Positions 1 to 14,636 of a DNA stretch of 32,193 bases are shown here, piece by piece. Below the pieces are notes generated by a model. The model did no database searches, had not been told where the DNA came from, and saw nothing but the letters and a program-made list of their open reading frames with translations. The DNA is taken from NCBI GenBank assembly GCA_025435355.1, contig JANJFQ010000009.1:1-32193 (forward strand), in the 5' to 3' direction. This DNA comes from Candidatus Methanophagales archaeon. GTDB lineage: Archaea > Halobacteriota > Syntropharchaeia > Alkanophagales > Methanospirareceae. A program made the translations under genes and the position numbers. Position 1 is the stretch's first letter, and the number at the start of each line of letters is the position of its first letter.

Positions 1-152
1 GGCTTTTTGTTAAATTTTTTGTATTTCTCTATCGCTTCCTGCCCATTTGTTGCCACGTCCAAAATGGTGTATTCCTTCTTCCTTTCTATCATTATCCTGT
101 ATAGCACCAGTATATCCGGGTCATCATCAACAAGAAATATTGTTTTAGTCAT
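1..152 (-). CDS. CheY-like response regulator receiver domain (N-terminal part; runs off the window edge)
   Basis: Minus-strand translation from ATG at 152: MTKTIFLVDDDPDILVLYRIMIERKKEYTILDVATNGQEAIEKYKKFNKK. It has the acidic VDDDP receiver start and is open at the window edge, so it is missing from the ORF track. Overlaps the stop of the next gene by 8 nt. Confidence 0.85.
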   Translation of the reverse strand, partial: MTKTIFLVDDDPDILVLYRIMIERKKEYTILDVATNGQEAIEKYKKFNKK

Positions 153-1239
153 TATCTCCTCCTTTTGGTTTAGGAATGATTATATTAAAGATGCTTCCCA
201 GCGCGTGGTCTCCCTTTACCCGGTCTTCTACCCAGACCCCACCACCATATCTGCTTACGAGCGTTTTCACCAGGTATAACCCGATTCCACTTCCACCCTC
301 ATATTTATGCCCTTTATGAAAACGTTTAAAGATTGCTTCCTTCGCTTCGTCCGGGACTCCTCTTCCTCTGTCTTCAACGCTTATCACGTAAAATTCTTTC
401 TCGTTTTTCGCATAATCTACAACGCCGATATCAATCTCGACTTTTGTAAATGGCGTGAATTTTATCGCATTATCTAATATATTGATGAATATGTCGTTTG
501 CAAAAGAATCCGCGAGGATATATTGTTTCTCTTCTGAAGGTATATAGTTTATTTCGACTTCTTTGTCCTTATGGTCTGCCTTTACACTATCAATGCTCTC
601 CTTGATTATGTCGGTTAAATCAATAGTTTTCAGCTCAGGTTCGATTTCCTGAATCTGTCTGAGTTTTCTTACATTTTCAATTAGCTTTGCACTCCTTTTA
701 ACCGCGGATAGCGCCTTCTCTGCATAATCCTTTTGTTCTTGTTCGCGGAGACCTGAATCTGATAGCGCACTAAGATAGCCCATTATTATTTGGTTTATGT
801 TATTTATGTCGTGTGCCATCAGGTCGTTATAAAATTCCGCCTTCTCTTTCAACACGAACACTTCTTGTTCTAATCTATTTTTATCAACCCCTCTCTTAAT
901 GATTTGTTTCAGGTCTTCCACATGATAAGGCTTCGGAATATAATCGTAGCAACCTTTCTCTATCGCCTCTATCGCCGTATCTAAGGAGGGATAGCCCGTG
1001 ATGATTATTCCAATCGTATGCGGATTGACTTTTTTTGCCGCCGCTATGACCTCCATGCCATCTTTTCCAGGCATCTTTAGATCTGCTAATACCACGTCGA
1101 AAATCTGCTTTTTCAGTAAATATATTGCTTCAAATCCGTCTTCTGCTGTTGTCACCTCATAACCTTCTTCTTTCAATATTGTTTTGGTGGTGACCAGAAA
1201 AGAGGGTTCATCATCAACTATGAGTATTTTTTCTTTCAT
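145..1239 (-). CDS. Hybrid response regulator-histidine kinase (REC + HisKA-like HDINN box + HATPase_c)
   Basis: ILIVDDEPSFL, VLADLKMPGKDG and PKPYH receiver motifs; H-box MAHDINNINQ; N/G boxes (NILDNAIKFTP, DRGRGVPDE, GGSGIGLYLVK). Confidence 0.9.
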   Translation of the reverse strand: MKEKILIVDDEPSFLVTTKTILKEEGYEVTTAEDGFEAIYLLKKQIFDVVLADLKMPGKDGMEVIAAAKKVNPHTIGIIITGYPSLDTAIEAIEKGCYDYIPKPYHVEDLKQIIKRGVDKNRLEQEVFVLKEKAEFYNDLMAHDINNINQIIMGYLSALSDSGLREQEQKDYAEKALSAVKRSAKLIENVRKLRQIQEIEPELKTIDLTDIIKESIDSVKADHKDKEVEINYIPSEEKQYILADSFANDIFINILDNAIKFTPFTKVEIDIGVVDYAKNEKEFYVISVEDRGRGVPDEAKEAIFKRFHKGHKYEGGSGIGLYLVKTLVSRYGGGVWVEDRVKGDHALGSIFNIIIPKPKGGDND

Positions 1240-2570
1240 TTTCTTCTCCCTTTCCTTTTCTCGTGTACGGGTAATGATATGATAAATGTTGTACCTTTTC
1301 CCACTTCGCTTTTGACTTCAATTCGCCCATTATGTCTTTGTATTACTCCGTAAGAGACCGACAAGCCCAAACCAGTGCCTTTACCGCCTTTCTTGGTGGT
1401 GAAGAAGGGGTCAAATATCTTATTCATTCTCTCTTCTGGTATCCCACAACCGGTATCGGTAAATTTTAGCTTAATCTCAGGCTCTCCCGTATGTTCTATT
1501 TGAGAATATGTTTTTATTGCTAATTCTCCACCTTCGGGCATGGACTCTAACGCATTTAGTATGATATTCAAAAACACCTGCTTAAGATGTTCCGGAGAAG
1601 CCATAGCATCAGGCAGTTTTGGGTCATAATGTTTAATTATTTTCACGTTACGATTGGCGATTTGGTTTTTTATGACCGCCAATATTTCATCAAGTGGAAC
1701 GTTGACGTTTGTAGGTCTCATAATCTCTTTTTTGGGGCGGTATAAATCCAAAAGCCGCCGAACAATACTCGCAATACGATTCACTTCTTGCTCTGCAATA
1801 TCTAAATATTCTTTTTTATGCTCGGATACCGAATCAGACAACAGATACAGACAGTTTTTTATTCCACCTAAGGGATTGTTTATTTCATGTGCAATATCAG
1901 CAGATAATCTACCAAGAGCTGCGAGTTTCTCTGATTGAATTAACTGTTCCTGAGCGGCTCTTAGTTCTTTATTAGCCTTTGAGACTTCTTTATTTAGCGA
2001 TATTAATCCGTAAAAGACCAGGAAAGCCATTCCAATAAGACTTAATCCAATCACCAGGCTTCCCCATAACATCCTCCATACCTCTAAATAAACTTCTTTA
2101 AGAGAGAAGCCCAACCAAACCGTATGACCACGATAACTGGGTGCTACAATGACTTTTATTTTCTCTACCTTATATATATCCTCTTTTATCACCGTTTTAT
2201 CCGTGGTGATTGCAGGGTTCCTGATGAACATACCTCGCTCTTCCAGTATATTGGATAAATAAATCTCACCAGTAGGCTTTACTATTCTACAATATACAAT
2301 ATCATCGGGTTCTGCTAATTTCCTCACTATTTCTCGTTTATGCGCGGGAACTGCGTGTACTTCTGCTGACCCGATGCTCATGGCTGCTGTCTCAGCTAAC
2401 AAAACTTTCTCTTCGATCGCGGATTCAATCATATACTCCTCCTCATTAATAATTGTCAGATAAGTTTGCACGCAGATAATGAAGATTAAAAAAATAAATA
2501 AGACGAAAAAGAGATTTAGATATGCTTCTCTGCTTTTGTCCTTCAACATATTACTGATTTTTTTATTCAT
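1236..2570 (-). CDS. Membrane sensor histidine kinase (two TM segments, HisKA, HATPase_c)
   Basis: N-terminal hydrophobic helix, extracellular region, second TM ([22 protein letters not shown]), [17 protein letters not shown]-box, [11 protein letters not shown]...[16 protein letters not shown]. 4-nt ATGA overlap with the downstream gene. Confidence 0.92.
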
Positions 2571-2581
2571 CTCATCCTTTC

Positions 2582-3538
2582 TTAATATCCAAATGCTGGA
2601 GACGAGCTGTGGTCTGCATACACAAGTGTTAGTTTTATGTTCTCGTCCATTCCTTCTATCTTCTTTATAAACTCTTCATTCCAATTACTCCAGCGGATAA
2701 GGCTATCTTTTGTAATCCTTCCACCTTTATTGAAAGGCACGATGGTGATTGGGGTGATTACACGGTCATCTAAATATTCGGCTAATTCCCATTGCGCAAG
2801 TACCACCGGGTCGTACATTCTTACTATTTTCCCTAACTCATCCACCGTGACGTGGTCTACATGCCCGTGTGTCAGTAATATCAGGTCAACATCCTCGAAA
2901 TCCGCGAAATCTTTGCATTCAGCAGGGCAGTCGGGATTTGCTTCCAGCCATGGGTCTATCATAATTCTCGTGCCGTTCACCGACTCGATGAAAAAAGAGG
3001 CATGCCCCAGCCAGAGAAATTTTATACCCTCTATTTCACGCCAAGCGCCGTATTCCAAAACGATAGGTTCTGCTCTTGTTTCTCCTCTATCTCTGAATTC
3101 TTTTACTCCTGCTACGAACTCAGTTGCATTTTGTGTCATCTCAGCAAAAGCATGGTAGTGATGGGGTACTACGAACTTCGGATTTATCAGTGTAGTAGCG
3201 TATGCTGCATCCTTTGAATCCATTGTATAAAAGTTTCCAATGGGTAGAAAAGCAATGTCTGGCTTGTAGTAGTCGCCTATGATAAATTTCATATCTCCGA
3301 AAAGGGCGGTATCGCCAGCAAAGTAAAGTTTCACTCCGTTCTCAAATTCAATCACGTAGCCATTGGAAGTCCCCGTGTAAATCGGTCCTTCAAATCTAAC
3401 GCCTTCTATCGGAACTTCCGACGTAACTATTTCTATCCTATCCTTTGTCGCTCGCTGATATCCTGCAAATGAAATAATAAGCGAAGCCACGGAAATCACT
3501 ACAATTATTCCTATTGCTATCCCTATTTTTTTATCCAT
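2582..3538 (-). CDS. Membrane-anchored metallo-beta-lactamase-fold hydrolase (UPF0173-like), circularly permuted
   Basis: N-terminal TM anchor. FAGDTALFGDM...LPIGNFYTM...VVPHHYHAF (normally C-terminal half) precedes FLWLGHASFFIES...IDPWL...LLTHGHVDHVT...YADHSSS (normally N-terminal half) in one continuous ORF. Confidence 0.88.
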   Translation of the reverse strand: MDKKIGIAIGIIVVISVASLIISFAGYQRATKDRIEIVTSEVPIEGVRFEGPIYTGTSNGYVIEFENGVKLYFAGDTALFGDMKFIIGDYYKPDIAFLPIGNFYTMDSKDAAYATTLINPKFVVPHHYHAFAEMTQNATEFVAGVKEFRDRGETRAEPIVLEYGAWREIEGIKFLWLGHASFFIESVNGTRIMIDPWLEANPDCPAECKDFADFEDVDLILLTHGHVDHVTVDELGKIVRMYDPVVLAQWELAEYLDDRVITPITIVPFNKGGRITKDSLIRWSNWNEEFIKKIEGMDENIKLTLVYADHSSSPAFGY

Positions 3539-3778: not shown

Positions 3779-4225
3779 ATGAAAGGCAACCCGGCGGAGA
3801 TCCTGCTTGTTGAAGATGAGGCGGCGCATGCAATGCTTACAATGCGCGCAATTGAAGATGCAAAGATTGCGAATGAGATTCATTGGGTAGCTGATGGTGA
3901 GGAAGCAATGAACTATCTCTTCCGTCGTGGCGAATACGCAGATAAGAAAAAAAGTCCTCGTCCTGATTTAATTCTTCTCGACTTGCGACTTCCTAAACTC
4001 GATGGTCATGAAGTGCTGAAGGCGATAAAAGAATCTGGTGATTTGAAGCATATACCCGTAGTAGTGCTTACCACTTCGGAAAGCGAAGGTGATTTGGCCA
4101 TGGCATACAGCAATTATGTCAACAGTTATCTTGTAAAACCCATAGACTTCGGTGAGTTCTCAGAAATGATACGCGAACTGGGTTTTTATTGGCTTATATG
4201 GAACAGGCATCCATGGAGAGGTTGA
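3779..4225 (+). CDS. Rcp1-like single-domain response regulator
   Basis: EILLVEDEAAHAMLTMRAIEDAKIANEIHWVADGEEAMNYLFRRGEYAD...PDLILLDLRLPKLDGHEVLK...PVVVLTTSE...VKPID...LGFYWLIWN. Confidence 0.92.
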   Translation: MKGNPAEILLVEDEAAHAMLTMRAIEDAKIANEIHWVADGEEAMNYLFRRGEYADKKKSPRPDLILLDLRLPKLDGHEVLKAIKESGDLKHIPVVVLTTSESEGDLAMAYSNYVNSYLVKPIDFGEFSEMIRELGFYWLIWNRHPWRG

Positions 4226-4226
4226 A

Positions 4227-4664
4227 TCAAACGAGCGAAATTATAGCATCTAATAGCCCCTCCATCTTTCCTCTCTTTTGAACAATAAACGCGGATTTTA
4301 GAATGTAACTTTTAACTCCCTCCTCGTATGTCCTGATTATATCTTCATCCCTCTCTGAAGCTGTAAGAACTACGACAGGAATATCTTTGATTTCTTCTTC
4401 CTGCTTTATTTGCTCCAGCACCTCTATTCCATCAAGCTTTGGCAGACGCAGGTCAAGCAGGATTACGTCCGGCTTCGGATACTTCTTTTCATCGGCGTAA
4501 TCGCCCCGGTTATAGAGGAAATCAAGTGCCTCTTCTCCATCTCTTGTAACAAAAACCATGTTTCTCAGCCTACTTTCCTTTAAAACCTTCTTTATAATAA
4601 GCACATGCTCCTCCAAATCTTCTATAAGCAATATCTTTATCTCTTTTTCTTCTCTTTCTTTCAT
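4227..4664 (-). CDS. Rcp1-like single-domain response regulator, paralog of the 3779-4225 gene
   Basis: KILLIEDLEEHVLIIKKVLKESRLRNMVFVTRDGEEALDFLYNRGDYADEKKYPKPDVILLDLRLPKLDGIEVLE; convergent, 1 bp from the neighbouring stop. Confidence 0.9.
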   Translation of the reverse strand: MKEREEKEIKILLIEDLEEHVLIIKKVLKESRLRNMVFVTRDGEEALDFLYNRGDYADEKKYPKPDVILLDLRLPKLDGIEVLEQIKQEEEIKDIPVVVLTASERDEDIIRTYEEGVKSYILKSAFIVQKRGKMEGLLDAIISLV

Positions 4665-4667
4665 TTT

Positions 4668-5051
4668 CTATCTCTTCTTCAATACACCCCCTATACGTGC
4701 TTCGATTTCTTCCGCGGAGAATGGCTTCCTCAAATATCCCTTTATTCCTGCTTTCACTGCTTTCACTATTAAATCAGGCGTATCTGAGGATTCCGCAACC
4801 ATCAGGATAACAATGGCAGAGGAATTCTCTGTTTCTATAATGCGCGTTGCCTCGATACCTTCTATATCCTTTAATGCCGCATCTACGAGCATAATATCCG
4901 GCTTCAGTTTCATATATTTATCTATTGCTTCTTTTCCATCTTTAGCTGTGCCAATGACCTCGAAACCAAGTTTTTCCAATACCGTAGTGAGCATGATACA
5001 TATAAATGAAGAACTATCAGCTATCAATACCCTCATCCTCTCCTTATCCAT
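4668..5051 (-). CDS. CheY-like response regulator receiver protein
   Basis: RVLIADSSSFICIMLTTVLEKLGFEVIGTAKDGKEAIDKYMKLKPDIMLVD...RKPFSAEEI. Confidence 0.88.
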   Translation of the reverse strand: MDKERMRVLIADSSSFICIMLTTVLEKLGFEVIGTAKDGKEAIDKYMKLKPDIMLVDAALKDIEGIEATRIIETENSSAIVILMVAESSDTPDLIVKAVKAGIKGYLRKPFSAEEIEARIGGVLKKR

Positions 5052-7132: not shown

Positions 7133-8347
7133 ATGGAAGAGGCATCCCCGGCGGGGGAAGAAACGGAGAAGAATGGAAGCGGAAGCATGGCTGACTCGAA
7201 CGAACCAGATGTGCGAGCTAAGACTGTTTTACTGGTTGAGGATGAAGAAGCGCATGCTGAGCTTATCCACAGAACATTCGAGCAGAACGGCTCAGAATGG
7301 GACATTCATCATGTTGTAAGCATCCGCGACGCTTTAAAATGGCTGGAAGAGAATAAAAAACCTTCACTCGTCATCGCGGATTATCGCCTGCCTGATGGCA
7401 CGGGCTTGGACCTTGCTAAGGGAGCGACGAGTGCTGAAAAAGTTGGCTTCCCGCTTATCATCCTCACAGGTTTTGGCTCCGAACGATTGGCAGTTCGCTC
7501 CCTCAAATCAGGCGCCATGGATTATATAGTGAAGGGCGCAGAAGGGATACATGAACTGCCATCTACGGTGGGGCGTGCAATTCGTGAATGGGGGAATATC
7601 ATCGGGTTGAAGCGAGCGGAGGAAGAGTTTGGGAGATATGTGAAGGATTTGGAACGAGCGAACCAGGATCTGGACGATTTCGCAGTCACGGTATCACATG
7701 ACTTAAAAGCACCTCTACGCACTATCCAGGCTTTTAGCATGCTCCTCATGGAAGATTATGCAGATGCGCTCGATGAAACAGGACGAGGATATTTAGATAA
7801 AGTGAGAAAAGCAGCAGAAAGGATGAGTTTGCTAATTGAAGACCTCCTAAAATTGAGTCGTGTTGGGCGAAAATTCACCGAGCTGGAAAAAGTTGATCTG
7901 AATGCGCTGTTGGAGGAAATAAAAGCGGATTTAAAGGTACGAATCGAGGAACGAAGCGGAGAAGTTGTGGTAGAAAAGTTGCCCGGCATTTTCACGCAGC
8001 GTGTCTGGATGAAGGAACTGCTCACGAATCTTATTGACAATGGATTGAAGTTCAATAAGTCGGATAAGCCAAAAGTAGAGATTAGTTGTGAAGAGAGTGA
8101 GAAAAGTTACCTGTTCAAGGTGAAAGATGACGGTATTGGGATCGAAGAGAAATATCAAGCTAATATCTTTAATCTCTTTGAAAGGTTGCATTCACAGTCT
8201 GAATATGAAGGCACGGGTGCAGGATTGGCAATTTGCAAGAAGATCGTAGAAGAACTTGGCGGGACTATCCGGGTTGAAAGCAAATCCGTGGAGGAAGGCA
8301 GCACGTTTTTCTTTACCATACCCAAGAATTTCACACAAAAGGAGTGA
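7133..8347 (+). CDS. Hybrid response regulator-histidine kinase (REC + HisKA + HATPase_c)
   Basis: KTVLLVEDEEAHAELIHRTFEQ, VIADYRLPDGTGLDL, DFAVTVSHDLKAPLRTIQAF, LIDNGLKFN, KDDGIGIEEKY, GTGAGLAICKKIVEELGG. The ORF opens at TTG 7121; the ATG at 7133 is preferred. Confidence 0.92.
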   Translation: MEEASPAGEETEKNGSGSMADSNEPDVRAKTVLLVEDEEAHAELIHRTFEQNGSEWDIHHVVSIRDALKWLEENKKPSLVIADYRLPDGTGLDLAKGATSAEKVGFPLIILTGFGSERLAVRSLKSGAMDYIVKGAEGIHELPSTVGRAIREWGNIIGLKRAEEEFGRYVKDLERANQDLDDFAVTVSHDLKAPLRTIQAFSMLLMEDYADALDETGRGYLDKVRKAAERMSLLIEDLLKLSRVGRKFTELEKVDLNALLEEIKADLKVRIEERSGEVVVEKLPGIFTQRVWMKELLTNLIDNGLKFNKSDKPKVEISCEESEKSYLFKVKDDGIGIEEKYQANIFNLFERLHSQSEYEGTGAGLAICKKIVEELGGTIRVESKSVEEGSTFFFTIPKNFTQKE

Positions 8348-9713
8348 ACTTAAGCAGGTGGTCCTCCTTTTTCCTTTCCCCGGCGCCTGAAGGCAAGGGT
8401 GAGATATTATAGATGACCGTGTGAGGTTTAACGCCGTAGATATTAAGCGTGCCGTTGATGGGGATAAAGCGGAGATGAACGTCAGCCATCTCGCGTATCT
8501 CGCTCTTTAACTTCATAGACGGTTTCAAAACACCTACGAAAACGTCATTTGTTGTTCTCACCTGCGATATCAGCTCCGAAAGCATTCCCCTTATGTCATC
8601 CTCAGGGTAACCATTCAGCCTTGTTAAGCCAAGCACCTGCAATACTGGCTTTTTCAGCCCCTTATATACCTCATGATGCGTCGTTAAGTATTCTTTTAGT
8701 GATTCACCTTCAAGATAGGTTAAACACGGGTCTCCACTTTCACTTTCAGAAGTAGTAGGCATCCGCAAGTTTTTATCGAGCACTTCTTCGCTGACATAAT
8801 CACCAAAAAGCTTCTTCACTGAAGAAGAATAAGAGCCATCCTCCGGCATGTACATAACGCCATGGTCATTTAGCAAGAAATCGGAAATCGTGTGAAATAA
8901 AACGGACCTATAACTCCAACTTATGCTATCATCCGCTATTTCTAACAAGATAAAGCCCCCCTCCGGATAGCCACCAATTATCCTATCCAGATCCTTTATC
9001 CCCGTGGAATAATACCCTGGGGGAAGTTCTTCGTTCTTGATTACCCTATGCCTTCCGCTGCCCAATCCTGACCCGGGAGTTACAAAATGAGTAAACTTAC
9101 CGCCTTCTAAGGTGTAGGGATAGTTACTGCGGGGAACTTGGAAACCCCTCATTTTATCTATAAACACCTTTCTTACGACTCTATCAGCTATCTGCTCCTT
9201 TTCCAATCTTAAAATACCGTCAACGAGATAATCCAGTCTTCTCCTTCCGGTATATTCACTTATTAAAATCAAATGCGTTTTCGTTTTTCGCGAGATGTCC
9301 AGCATAGCGGTTTCAAGCTTTTCTACGTCATGGTTTTCTTTGCCTACCTGAAAAGAGACCGCATCCCAGCTATCAATTATCAGAATCGTAACGTCCTCTT
9401 CGGCAACAACGGAGTAAACGGACCGCAAGAAACTTGTGAGGTCTTCGTATAATACTTGCGACTCCGCTTCCGAAAATTCCGATTGCGTGGCATCAATGAC
9501 ATTTTTCACCGGCACTCGCTTTTCCAAATCCGGAAACTGGTTATACAGCGCCGTAGGGTCGATACGAGTTGAGATATAAGCGCCTTTAGCATCTCCCTGG
9601 CATAGCCTTTCGAGAAGCGTCATCGCATACGTGGTCTTTCCAGTCCCCGGAGCTCCTTTAAACAAAATGATATAGCCCCCCATTAACTTAAGTGCGTCTT
9701 CTACTTCGTACAT
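8331..9713 (-). CDS. Two-domain KaiC/RAD55-like ATPase (GvpD-like); ORF opens at 9740 but an internal ATG at 9713 fits the TATA position better
   Basis: Domain 1 Walker A GAPGTGKTTYAMTLL and Walker B VTILIIDSWD. Domain 2 STGIKDLDRIIGGYPEGGFILLEIADDSISWSYRSVLF lacks a canonical P-loop. TATA-like tttatataat at ~9744-9753 on the minus strand. Confidence 0.8.
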   Translation of the reverse strand: MYEVEDALKLMGGYIILFKGAPGTGKTTYAMTLLERLCQGDAKGAYISTRIDPTALYNQFPDLEKRVPVKNVIDATQSEFSEAESQVLYEDLTSFLRSVYSVVAEEDVTILIIDSWDAVSFQVGKENHDVEKLETAMLDISRKTKTHLILISEYTGRRRLDYLVDGILRLEKEQIADRVVRKVFIDKMRGFQVPRSNYPYTLEGGKFTHFVTPGSGLGSGRHRVIKNEELPPGYYSTGIKDLDRIIGGYPEGGFILLEIADDSISWSYRSVLFHTISDFLLNDHGVMYMPEDGSYSSSVKKLFGDYVSEEVLDKNLRMPTTSESESGDPCLTYLEGESLKEYLTTHHEVYKGLKKPVLQVLGLTRLNGYPEDDIRGMLSELISQVRTTNDVFVGVLKPSMKLKSEIREMADVHLRFIPINGTLNIYGVKPHTVIYNISPLPSGAGERKKEDHLLKFTPFV

Positions 9714-9830
9714 GGTTGATTTACCTATGCTTGATTTCATTTTACATTATATAAATATTTGGAACAGTTAAAAAAATCTTTACTTATATAAAGTATTTTT
9801 GCAATTGTGGACTCAAACCTCACCTGTCCC

Positions 9831-11140: not shown

Positions 11141-11183
11141 CACCATTTTCAAACTTCCTAATCAGGAGGTGAAACTGAAAAAA

Positions 11184-11867
11184 ATGAAAACAATAAAATC
11201 GCTGAGAAAAGACAAAAAGGGATTCACTGGTTTAGAAGCAGCAATCGTGCTGACCGCGTTCGTCGTAGTCGCCGCAGTCTTCAGTTACGTCGTGCTAAAC
11301 GCAGGATTCTTTAGCTCGGAGAAGGCAAAGGAGGTGGTGCATACCGGCGTGGAGCAGGTGACTTCGTCATTCGAACTCGCTGGTAATGTTATCGGGTATG
11401 GATTGCAGTATACTGGCACAACATATTATCCTCCCGTTGTTGACGACACCAACCTGACGGTAGTAGAATTATACCTGACACTGACTGCCGGGCAGTCTCC
11501 AATAGACCTGGACAAGCTCACAGTCTCGTACACGGACCGAGACACACACGTAGGAGCGTTGAACTATACTAAGATATACTATACTGATTACGTCGGGGGC
11601 TACCCTAACGAGACAAATAATGCGAATGTGACAAGAATCAACATGAGTATGGGCAACTGGACCTATTACACGGCGGACACACCCGGAGCAACCCATAACA
11701 ATCTGTTAGAGCCACAGGAGAAAGCAATTATTCTCATTACACTACCTGAGTACGGTGTAACAGCAAACAAACCGTTCACACTTGAATTGAAGCCATATAC
11801 CGGAGCTGTAATCGCGATACCGAGAACGGCACCCGGACAAATAGACAAAACGATGACTTTGTATTAG
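11184..11867 (+). CDS. arlB: Archaellin (type III signal peptide); ORF opens at GTG 11169, ATG 11184 preferred
   Basis: KKGFTGLEAAIVLTAFVVVAAVFSYVVLNAGFFSSEKAKEVVHTGVEQVTSSFELAGNVIGYG: archaellin N-terminus with prepilin-peptidase-type site. AGGAGGT RBS at 11164-11170. Confidence 0.93.
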   Translation: MKTIKSLRKDKKGFTGLEAAIVLTAFVVVAAVFSYVVLNAGFFSSEKAKEVVHTGVEQVTSSFELAGNVIGYGLQYTGTTYYPPVVDDTNLTVVELYLTLTAGQSPIDLDKLTVSYTDRDTHVGALNYTKIYYTDYVGGYPNETNNANVTRINMSMGNWTYYTADTPGATHNNLLEPQEKAIILITLPEYGVTANKPFTLELKPYTGAVIAIPRTAPGQIDKTMTLY

Positions 11868-11878
11868 CGAAAGAGGAG

Positions 11879-12511
11879 ATGAAAAGAAAAAAAATGAGAA
11901 CAAATAGAAGAAAAAGAAAAAGTATAAGGAAAGATAAGCGAGCGTTCACCGGGTTGGAAGCAGCAATCGTGCTGACCGCATTCGTTGTCGTGGCTGCGGT
12001 GTTCTCATACGTAGTCCTGAATGCTGGTTTCTTCACCACGCAAAAAGCCAAATCTACCGTTCATACCGGCATTACGCAGGCTACTTCTTCTGTCGAACTC
12101 GCTGGTGACGTAATCGGATTCGGATATGGAAACATTGCTCTGGATAATGTAAGGTTCTATATACGGCTTACTGCAGGGCAAAGTAAAGTGGACTTAAATC
12201 AAACCATACTGTCGTATACTGCCAGCTCCGGGCACATCATGATGGTGAAGAATTCCGCTCTTTGCGGGAGTGCGAGCTCCCTATCTGGTACCATGCCTAC
12301 CACTAATAATGAGTGGTCATTTGGATGGATCGAAGGTGCAGATGGGGACAGCCTTTTGGAAAGGGGCGAAAAAGCAGAAATGCTCGTTAATATGGCAAAC
12401 CTGGACCCAAATGATGAATTCGTGATTGAGGTGAAACCACCAGAGGGCACGACACTGGGAATAGAGAGAGTAGTACCAGCAGCGATTTACGGCGTGATGA
12501 ACATGCACTAA
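11879..12511 (+). CDS. arlB: Archaellin, second paralog
   Basis: KRAFTGLEAAIVLTAFVVVAAVFSYVVLNAGFFTTQKAKSTVHTGITQATSSVELAGDVIGFGYG. Confidence 0.93.
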   Translation: MKRKKMRTNRRKRKSIRKDKRAFTGLEAAIVLTAFVVVAAVFSYVVLNAGFFTTQKAKSTVHTGITQATSSVELAGDVIGFGYGNIALDNVRFYIRLTAGQSKVDLNQTILSYTASSGHIMMVKNSALCGSASSLSGTMPTTNNEWSFGWIEGADGDSLLERGEKAEMLVNMANLDPNDEFVIEVKPPEGTTLGIERVVPAAIYGVMNMH

Positions 12512-12539
12512 ACAGCATGAAAAAACAAACCGAAAAAAT

Positions 12540-12590
12540 AGAGGGTTTTTTGTTTTTTCCCTCTCCCCTTTTTTATTTTTTTAAAAATTT
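12540..12590 (+). terminator. Candidate terminator downstream of arlB2 (gaggg/ccctc hairpin plus T-tracts)
   Basis: agagggttttttgttttttccctctccccttttttatttttt; strong oligo-T tracts typical of archaeal termination. Confidence 0.55.
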
Positions 12591-12626
12591 TTGAAATAGA
12601 GGAAGAAGGAGCTGAGAAACGAGAAA

Positions 12627-13532
12627 ATGGAACTGATAGAGCGTATAAACGTACTGGAAGGCGAAGTGAAACTGGTAAAGAGCGAGATAAAGAAAGTTCT
12701 CGTTGACTTACGTGAGACGATGAACAGCGCCGAAAACCCGTTTGCTTATCTCGAACAGTTCCGGAGAGGTCTTGGTGGCATTGACGAAGAGCGACTGAAA
12801 AATCTGGAGGATGCTCTGGAACGATTAAAGGAAGTGGGTGGAGGTAATGGAATAGAAGAAGAGCGAATAAAAAATTTGGAGGAAGTTGTGGAACAATTAA
12901 AGGAAATGGGAAATGGAATGGATGAAGAGAGGCTAAAAAATTTGGAGGATAGGATGGAGGAATTAAAGGAACTGGGTAGTGTAGAGGTAGAGAAGCTGCA
13001 AAATTTGGAGGGTGCTATTGAGAAGTTAGCAGAACTGAAAACACAATTGCAGCCGGAAAAACCGATAATTCACAATCCGACGGCTTTAGAATCAGAATCA
13101 GAGCTGAGTGGAATTGGAGTCGAAACTGGAACTGGAATGGTTGACACGGTTACGCTTGCACAACTTATGCAATGGGCTGACACTGCACTCAATCTCATCG
13201 GAATGGCGAAGTTGAATCAACTCGTCGAATTGTATGAACTGACCGGTCGTATATCACGCGAGATGAAGGATACAATTTTAAAAGTCGCTGAACTCCCGGA
13301 CGCCGTTCTAAGTCCGGAGAAAGGGCACGTAGAAACGAAGCACTGCGTTACCGCGCTGTGTGAATTAGACAGGATTCTCAACGGTGAGCACCAGGAAGTG
13401 TTCGTGCTTCTAAAGGAACTGTGCAACGACTACGGCCCTTTAAAAAAGCCCGATGTCAAACACTCCCCCAACCCAATCCAAAGTAAATCCCAATCTCCCA
13501 ATCCCAGGACCGAGAAAGGGAAGAAAAAATAA
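12627..13532 (+). CDS. ArlC/D/E-type archaellum accessory protein with repetitive coiled-coil N-terminal half
   Basis: C-terminal DTVTLAQLMQWADTALNLIGMAKLNQLVELYELTGRISREMKDTILKVAEL matches the FlaD/E-type domain; position follows arlB genes; internal repeats EERLKNLEDALERLKE. Confidence 0.8.
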   Translation: MELIERINVLEGEVKLVKSEIKKVLVDLRETMNSAENPFAYLEQFRRGLGGIDEERLKNLEDALERLKEVGGGNGIEEERIKNLEEVVEQLKEMGNGMDEERLKNLEDRMEELKELGSVEVEKLQNLEGAIEKLAELKTQLQPEKPIIHNPTALESESELSGIGVETGTGMVDTVTLAQLMQWADTALNLIGMAKLNQLVELYELTGRISREMKDTILKVAELPDAVLSPEKGHVETKHCVTALCELDRILNGEHQEVFVLLKELCNDYGPLKKPDVKHSPNPIQSKSQSPNPRTEKGKKK

Positions 13533-13601
13533 AACAACCAATAGGTAGCACTGCGATTTCATAAGAGCGGACAAATACATACGGTAAAGAGGTGTGAAAG
13601 A

Positions 13602-14084
13602 ATGTCAGAAGCTGCGATTACCACTGCAATAATAACTATTGCTTGCGTGATATGCGCAGGCATGCTCGTTAGTGCAATCTATCCTGCTATGAATCGTGCT
13701 ACTTCGTCCGTCATCTCAACCAGCGAAAAACTCGGCGAGCGGATTGAAACTTCCATTGCTATTATCGCAGAAGCGAACCAATCTTCGTATGAATACGTTT
13801 GGGTAAAAAATACAGGGTCTTCGGAAATACCACAGATAGATAACGCTGATGTCTTCTTCGGTAAAATAAACGAGTTTCAACGAATCCCTTTCAATTCGTC
13901 CCTTTCAGCACTGGCTCCAAGCTGGACTTATTCTATTGAAAATGACGATGGTGATGGAAGATGGGACGTTGGAGAAACGCTAAACATATCGATACACGCG
14001 TCCAATGTAATCACCGCAGGCGACTATTACGTTAAAATTATCGTGTATAATGGAATATCAGATGAGGAAGTATTTTCGGTTTGA
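13602..14084 (+). CDS. arlG: Archaellum stator/anchoring protein, ArlG-like
   Basis: MSEAAITTAIITIACVICAGMLVSAIYPAMNRATSSVISTSEKLGERIETSIAIIAE: N-terminal TM followed by beta-sandwich-like domain; position in the arl locus. Confidence 0.72.
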   Translation: MSEAAITTAIITIACVICAGMLVSAIYPAMNRATSSVISTSEKLGERIETSIAIIAEANQSSYEYVWVKNTGSSEIPQIDNADVFFGKINEFQRIPFNSSLSALAPSWTYSIENDDGDGRWDVGETLNISIHASNVITAGDYYVKIIVYNGISDEEVFSV

Positions 14085-14087
14085 AAA

Positions 14088-14636
14088 ATGGGCTTCGGAA
14101 CTATATTCGCTACTATCGCGATGGTCGCAATAATTGGTATCGCGTCTTACCTGTTCATAACTGGCGCTCTGTTTACTATGGATACGTTATCCAACTCGCT
14201 CAAGATAATCAATGAAATAGATAACGCGAGGCTTAAAACAGAAATAGAAATAGGAAACGTTTCTGTAAAACCCTCAAACCCTGGCTCAGGAAGCGATATA
14301 AATGTTTCTATCAACAACACGGGCGCAACGAAAATATTGAATTCCGAGTTCGAGCATATAGACGTCTTCGTCTATTATCATAACGACACGGCAGGAGGAA
14401 ATATCGCAATCCACAGATGGATACCATACAATGATACTAATTATGATGGCAGTGCATTGCAGGATAACGAATGGACGGTTGTGAACATCACGCAGGATTT
14501 AATCAATCCCGGAATATTTGACCCTGATGAGGAGATAAAAATCATGGTTCGCATTTACCCTGCGATAGACGGCACCATCCGGAACTGGCTGAAAGTAGTC
14601 ACGCCAAACGCAGTTTCGGATGCGAAATATTTCTAA
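14088..14636 (+). CDS. arlF: Archaellum stator/anchoring protein, ArlF-like
   Basis: MGFGTIFATIAMVAIIGIASYLFITGALFTMDTLSNSLKIINEIDNARLKTEIEIGNVSV; N-terminal TM, extracellular domain; adjacent to arlG. Confidence 0.72.
   Translation: MGFGTIFATIAMVAIIGIASYLFITGALFTMDTLSNSLKIINEIDNARLKTEIEIGNVSVKPSNPGSGSDINVSINNTGATKILNSEFEHIDVFVYYHNDTAGGNIAIHRWIPYNDTNYDGSALQDNEWTVVNITQDLINPGIFDPDEEIKIMVRIYPAIDGTIRNWLKVVTPNAVSDAKYF

Follow-up and report, generated by a model that had tools for sequence, protein, structure and literature searches.

Near one end of the analysed stretch of DNA (the window, 32,193 nucleotides of a Candidatus Methanophagales archaeon), an open reading frame encodes a metallo-beta-lactamase (MBL) fold protein whose conserved motifs appear in a permuted order. 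Three signalling genes follow it on the same strand.

2582..3538, minus strand: circularly permuted UPF0173-type MBL-fold protein (318 aa, ATG start, stop included)
1236..2570, minus strand: membrane histidine kinase that has an extracytoplasmic region, located downstream of the permuted gene after a gap of 11 nt
145..1239, minus strand: Receiver-HisKA-HATPase hybrid, whose gene shares 4 nt with that of the kinase
1..152, minus strand: receiver-domain protein, of which only the start is present (contig end); complete in the three related MAGs named below

The sensor-kinase gene cluster

Full-length permuted relatives were found in three further MAGs with separate accessions, namely ANME-1 GoMg2 (L031, 81% identity), Methanophagales CR_Bin_179 (L032, 68%) and CSMAG_1265 (L033, 68%). 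In all three and in the window, the permuted gene is followed in the same order by the kinase, the receiver-kinase hybrid and the receiver protein. The preliminary description had placed the permuted gene at the head of a sensor-kinase operon, and the 11 nt gap together with the gene order conserved in four MAGs supports this assignment. The kinase contains two hydrophobic segments that flank a region without domain assignment. Among 51 genomes, close homologues of its membrane and sensor part (54-81% identity) were detected only in the four that carry the permutant, and no MBL gene was seen among the neighbours of more distant kinase homologues. As the genes are adjacent, this co-occurrence shows that the unit was inherited or transferred together and not that its products interact.

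Three free-standing response regulators, one of them divergent from the operon, are located beside it (3779-5051), a layout that recurs in L032 and L033. Further, a KaiC/GvpD-like P-loop protein (8331-9740, minus strand) adjoins a receiver-kinase gene, and an archaellum cluster (11169-14636, plus strand), is present, three tested proteins of which match the archaeal flagellin model. Several free-standing response regulators also lie within the window.

Circular permutation of a UPF0173-type domain

Within the 318-residue protein, a transmembrane anchor is followed by GYVI, AGDT and PHHYH and then by GHASF, IDPWL, HGHVDH and HSSS, corresponding to a motif order of 4-5-1-2-3. The collinear UPF0173 order 1-2-3-4-5 with the GHA strand first is absent. 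The segments of the chain are as follows.

3443..3529, minus strand: transmembrane signal anchor, aa 4-32, with an N-terminal MDKK and predicted N-in/C-out orientation (Kyte-Doolittle 2.8, charge bias, model helix 3-32)
3386..3442, minus strand: linker between the anchor and the first conserved strand, aa 33-51 (alignments)
3032..3385, minus strand: ancestral C-terminal half (motifs 4-5), aa 52-169, with GYVI, AGDT (D76) and PxHYH (H127); profile positions 129-225
3011..3043, minus strand: seam, aa 166-176, a predicted beta-hairpin in which roughly one added residue (aa 170) links the former C-terminus to the former N-terminus
2585..3028, minus strand: ancestral N-terminal half (motifs 1-3), aa 171-318, with GHASF, IDPWL, HGHVDH and DHSSS; profile positions 8-108, remainder by alignment
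2852..2869, minus strand: metal-binding motif HGHVDH, aa 224-229
2645..2704, minus strand: insertion of about 20 residues before the last strand, aa 279-298, missing from canonical homologues (alignment, profile)
2600..2611, minus strand: HSSS motif, aa 310-313; the ligand H310 lies eight residues ahead of the new C-terminus

UPF0173 is represented in NCBIfam by NF001911 (PRK00685), a metal-dependent hydrolase family, against which the protein scored 178.1 bits (cut-off 144). The match was split into two stretches, the best of which placed residues 53-149 on profile positions 121-214. The UPF0173 chains 6hrg and 3x2z from the PDB each yielded two matching pieces as well, in swapped order compared with the 318-residue protein. 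A canonical profile was then built from 34 canonical archaeal homologues and, as a permutation test, the same profile was doubled head to tail (478 positions). The single profile aligned residues 52-150 to positions 129-225 (108 bits) and residues 167-278 to positions 8-108 (62 bits), with a short third piece at background level. With the doubled profile, the main match was one piece of 175 bits, residues 52-278 on positions 129-347, that ran across the copy boundary. This boundary was crossed by all four permutants and by none of the 34 canonical controls. Residues 299-318, comprising the last strand and HSSS, align to the family by position, but an insertion of about 20 residues ahead of them leaves them with a score close to zero when taken as a separate piece. 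Rearranging the two halves to the canonical order resulted in a clean alignment with canonical homologues. The NF001911 stretches, the swapped PDB pieces and the doubled profile all confirm the 4-5-1-2-3 permutation within one reading frame that had been proposed earlier, and we regard the protein as almost certainly a single UPF0173-type MBL domain that has undergone natural circular permutation.

The seam itself can be read in the alignment: IVLEYGAWREI, the former C-terminal end, leads via roughly one additional residue to GIKFLWLGH, the former N-terminal start, in line with the end-to-end fusion suggested in the preliminary description. This residue is Glu in three permutants and Met (ATG) in L031 (709-1665), where it could be a leftover of the ancestral start codon, although this is only suggestive. 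The alignment and the profile pieces likewise locate the new termini in the loop between HSSS and GYVI, as had been predicted. The chain is thereby cut within the loop equivalent to PVR5 of Igni18 (residues 117-126), which carries a metal ligand, forms the trimer interface and, in simulation, moved more than any other loop of the monomer. With the new termini in this mobile interface loop, the anchor would therefore enter beside the active site. The anchor, also part of the preliminary description, is borne out by charge bias and by a 19-residue Kyte-Doolittle maximum of 2.8, compared with at most 1.43 in the canonical set. In this the permutant differs from the soluble UPF0173 proteins, which contain no transmembrane segment; all 34 canonical proteins fall below the hydropathy of its anchor.

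All seven metal ligands (five His and two Asp: H224, H226, D228, H229, H310, D76 and H127) are present, and the set is that of Igni18 (PMC7846560). Together with the second-sphere residues H179 and E251, which match His8 and Glu73' of TM1162, they are invariant in the 34 canonical homologues and the four permutants, and the complete ligand set noted in the preliminary description is thereby borne out. The permutant thus has all motifs, the seven ligands and the second-sphere His and Glu in common with UPF0173/NF001911 proteins (TM1162, PDB 3x2z; Igni18, PDB 6hrg; 7e3v/7e3w), at roughly 30-50% identity per half. It differs from them in its motif order of 4-5-1-2-3, its membrane anchor, the insertion of about 20 residues and the position of its termini in the PVR5 loop, whereas canonical proteins start with the GHA strand. 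There are two further changes: Phe or Leu occupies the position before AGDT where 33 of 34 canonical proteins have His, and the LPIG motif is altered to LSS[C/G] in two permutants.

ANME-1 genomes also encode canonical-order MBL paralogues (L034-L038) that share MBL motifs 2-5 and the archaeal family with the permutant but belong to a different subfamily, with a first strand lacking GHA and with identity confined to the C-terminal half (about 32-35%). In this paralogue group, which also includes L041 with its divergent start, WFPPSWFQI takes the place of GHA and consequently the second-sphere His is missing; HHKDH or HHMDH and AGDT are kept.

Distribution, selection and origin

The permuted gene is single-copy in its own genome. 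The four permutant MAGs span three genera of Methanophagales (ANME-1) and represent 4 of 51 family genomes; no further permutants turned up in the rest of the class (58 genomes in all). Of 397 genomes drawn from the phylum Halobacteriota, 221 gave a match, and full-length matches were restricted to the same four. All other phylum loci for which the order was checked were canonical or matched by one half, with no permutant among them. Across the approximately 450 Halobacteriota genomes searched, canonical forms are common and the four remain the sole permutants found. When 85,462 species genomes were scanned with a pattern sensitive to close relatives only, just the three related MAGs were returned. 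Viral contigs searched with permutant and canonical alignments gave no match, and two proteins found on such contigs by motif pattern turned out to be unrelated. Matches in plasmid and phage records stayed below 60% identity, many covering one half only, and no permutant was evident (motif order was not checked record by record). PADLOC assigned no defence family.

For five of the six pairs of permutants, dN/dS was 0.14-0.20, with 0.28 in the sixth and closest pair; synonymous sites were near saturation in some of these comparisons. Values were low on both sides of the seam. Judged from these sequence comparisons, the permuted gene is under purifying selection. An assembly or binning artefact, a concern raised at the outset and one that could be argued from the window being one contig of a MAG of 227 contigs, is excluded: three independent relatives in other MAGs, 68-81% identical, carry the same permuted gene followed by the same downstream genes, and low dN/dS extends across both seam sides.

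In trees of each half, computed from sampled proteins, the permutants form one clade on a long branch among canonical UPF0173 proteins. The two trees place this branch differently, with weak support, and the sample contains no close canonical sister of either half. The permutation probably arose once, through tandem duplication and trimming, before the four lineages split. Plant Pot II inhibitors are natural circular permutants generated by tandem duplication (PMC2259423); the type of rearrangement is alike, the fold unrelated. Duplication with trimming serves as the default explanation but is not demonstrated, since neither a tandem-duplicated intermediate among the relatives examined nor a remnant in the linker was found: a stretch of the N-terminal linker that by eye seemed to lie in register as a duplication remnant did not outscore shuffled sequences. 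G276, G195 and G316, considered as tandem MBL genes on the basis of matches that ran through stops, each proved to be a single canonical gene. The missing intermediate and remnant, as well as the differing and weakly supported position of the long branch, would also fit an origin from split half-genes re-fused in swapped order or from fused halves of two paralogues. We consider such an origin possible but rather unlikely, as no split halves were seen and the permutants form one clade among canonical UPF0173 proteins in both half-trees.

Predicted fold and proposed role

The protein was modelled by AlphaFold twice, once with the anchor included and once with it removed, from an alignment of the four sequences. 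Confidence was moderate (pTM 0.67 and 0.74, pLDDT 66-69) and lowest around some active-site loops. The models contain an anchor helix at residues 3-32 and a beta-hairpin at the seam (166-169/172-176), which fits the sheet order of Igni18, where the C-terminal strand beta14 is listed beside beta1 (PMC7846560). The best Foldseek matches were UPF0173 structures, covering about 106 columns at an rmsd of about 2 and a TM of about 0.39 of the target, i.e. one half, as obtained with a sequential aligner and a model of moderate confidence. MBL structures in general were matched by halves or loosely over the whole model, again with the sequential aligner. A half-length match is what a sequential aligner would be expected to give for a permutant and does not constitute proof of full superposition.

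These data lead to the following scheme. As the profiles and alignments show, the ancestral C- and N-termini were fused and the chain was opened after HSSS, in the mobile trimer-interface loop of the solved homologue. The two halves would then come together again as one alpha-beta-beta-alpha fold within a single chain, given that the former C-terminal strand beta14 adjoins beta1 and the fusion is modelled as a beta-hairpin; this step draws on the model and the literature. The same hairpin seam, formed in a single chain between termini that are adjacent in the fold, renders improbable a domain-swapped oligomer in which halves pair between neighbouring membrane-bound subunits, an arrangement brought to mind by the trimeric state of canonical Igni18, whose interface loop is the cut site of the permutant.

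For a domain refolded in one chain, the invariant ligands point to a dinuclear metal site and to a hydrolase that would probably act on ester or phosphoester bonds. Loss of the otherwise conserved His before AGDT, the altered LPIG motif in two members and the tie to a sensor kinase would also be compatible with a pseudo-enzyme, that is, a permuted MBL fold serving as a ligand- or metal-binding co-sensor of the kinase with little or no catalysis. This is unlikely given that the seven metal ligands and the second-sphere His and Glu have been retained under purifying selection. Returning to the hydrolase, hydropathy and charge suggest that a signal anchor holds the domain outside the cytoplasmic membrane, a location we consider quite probable, and tethers it beside the active-site rim, where it would probably be kept from assembling into the canonical trimer. 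The tight, conserved gene order and the co-occurrence further suggest that it may be a partner of the membrane histidine kinase, for which it would process or bind an extracellular ligand; such functional coupling, proposed from linkage, is a tentative assignment. Taken together, we favour a folded single-domain, extracytoplasmic and tethered metallohydrolase working with the downstream kinase as the probable overall reading, and its working form is likely an extracytoplasmic membrane-tethered metallohydrolase or a metal-dependent co-sensor for the two-component system. More speculatively, the permutation may have been a functional invention, in which ends placed in the active-site and trimer-interface loop let a tether enter by the metal site and so made a co-sensor, tethered on the extracytoplasmic side and gating a histidine kinase, out of a hydrolase that had been soluble and trimeric.

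In conclusion, the circular permutation is real and conserved. The MBL superfamily is very large and much studied, yet the open-access literature searched yielded no report of a natural circular permutant of it. If the reading as a tethered co-sensor is true, this would be the first such permutant and one whose permutation was selected for signalling. Being conserved and complete in its ligands, the protein provides a naturally occurring test case for the loop in which this fold accepts new chain ends, and for the influence of that loop on quaternary structure and active-site gating. Profiles used for naming may pass permuted proteins unnoticed, as happens here because the score exceeds the NF001911 cut-off. 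The permutant further leads to an uncharacterised signalling operon in the methane-eating ANME-1 archaea.
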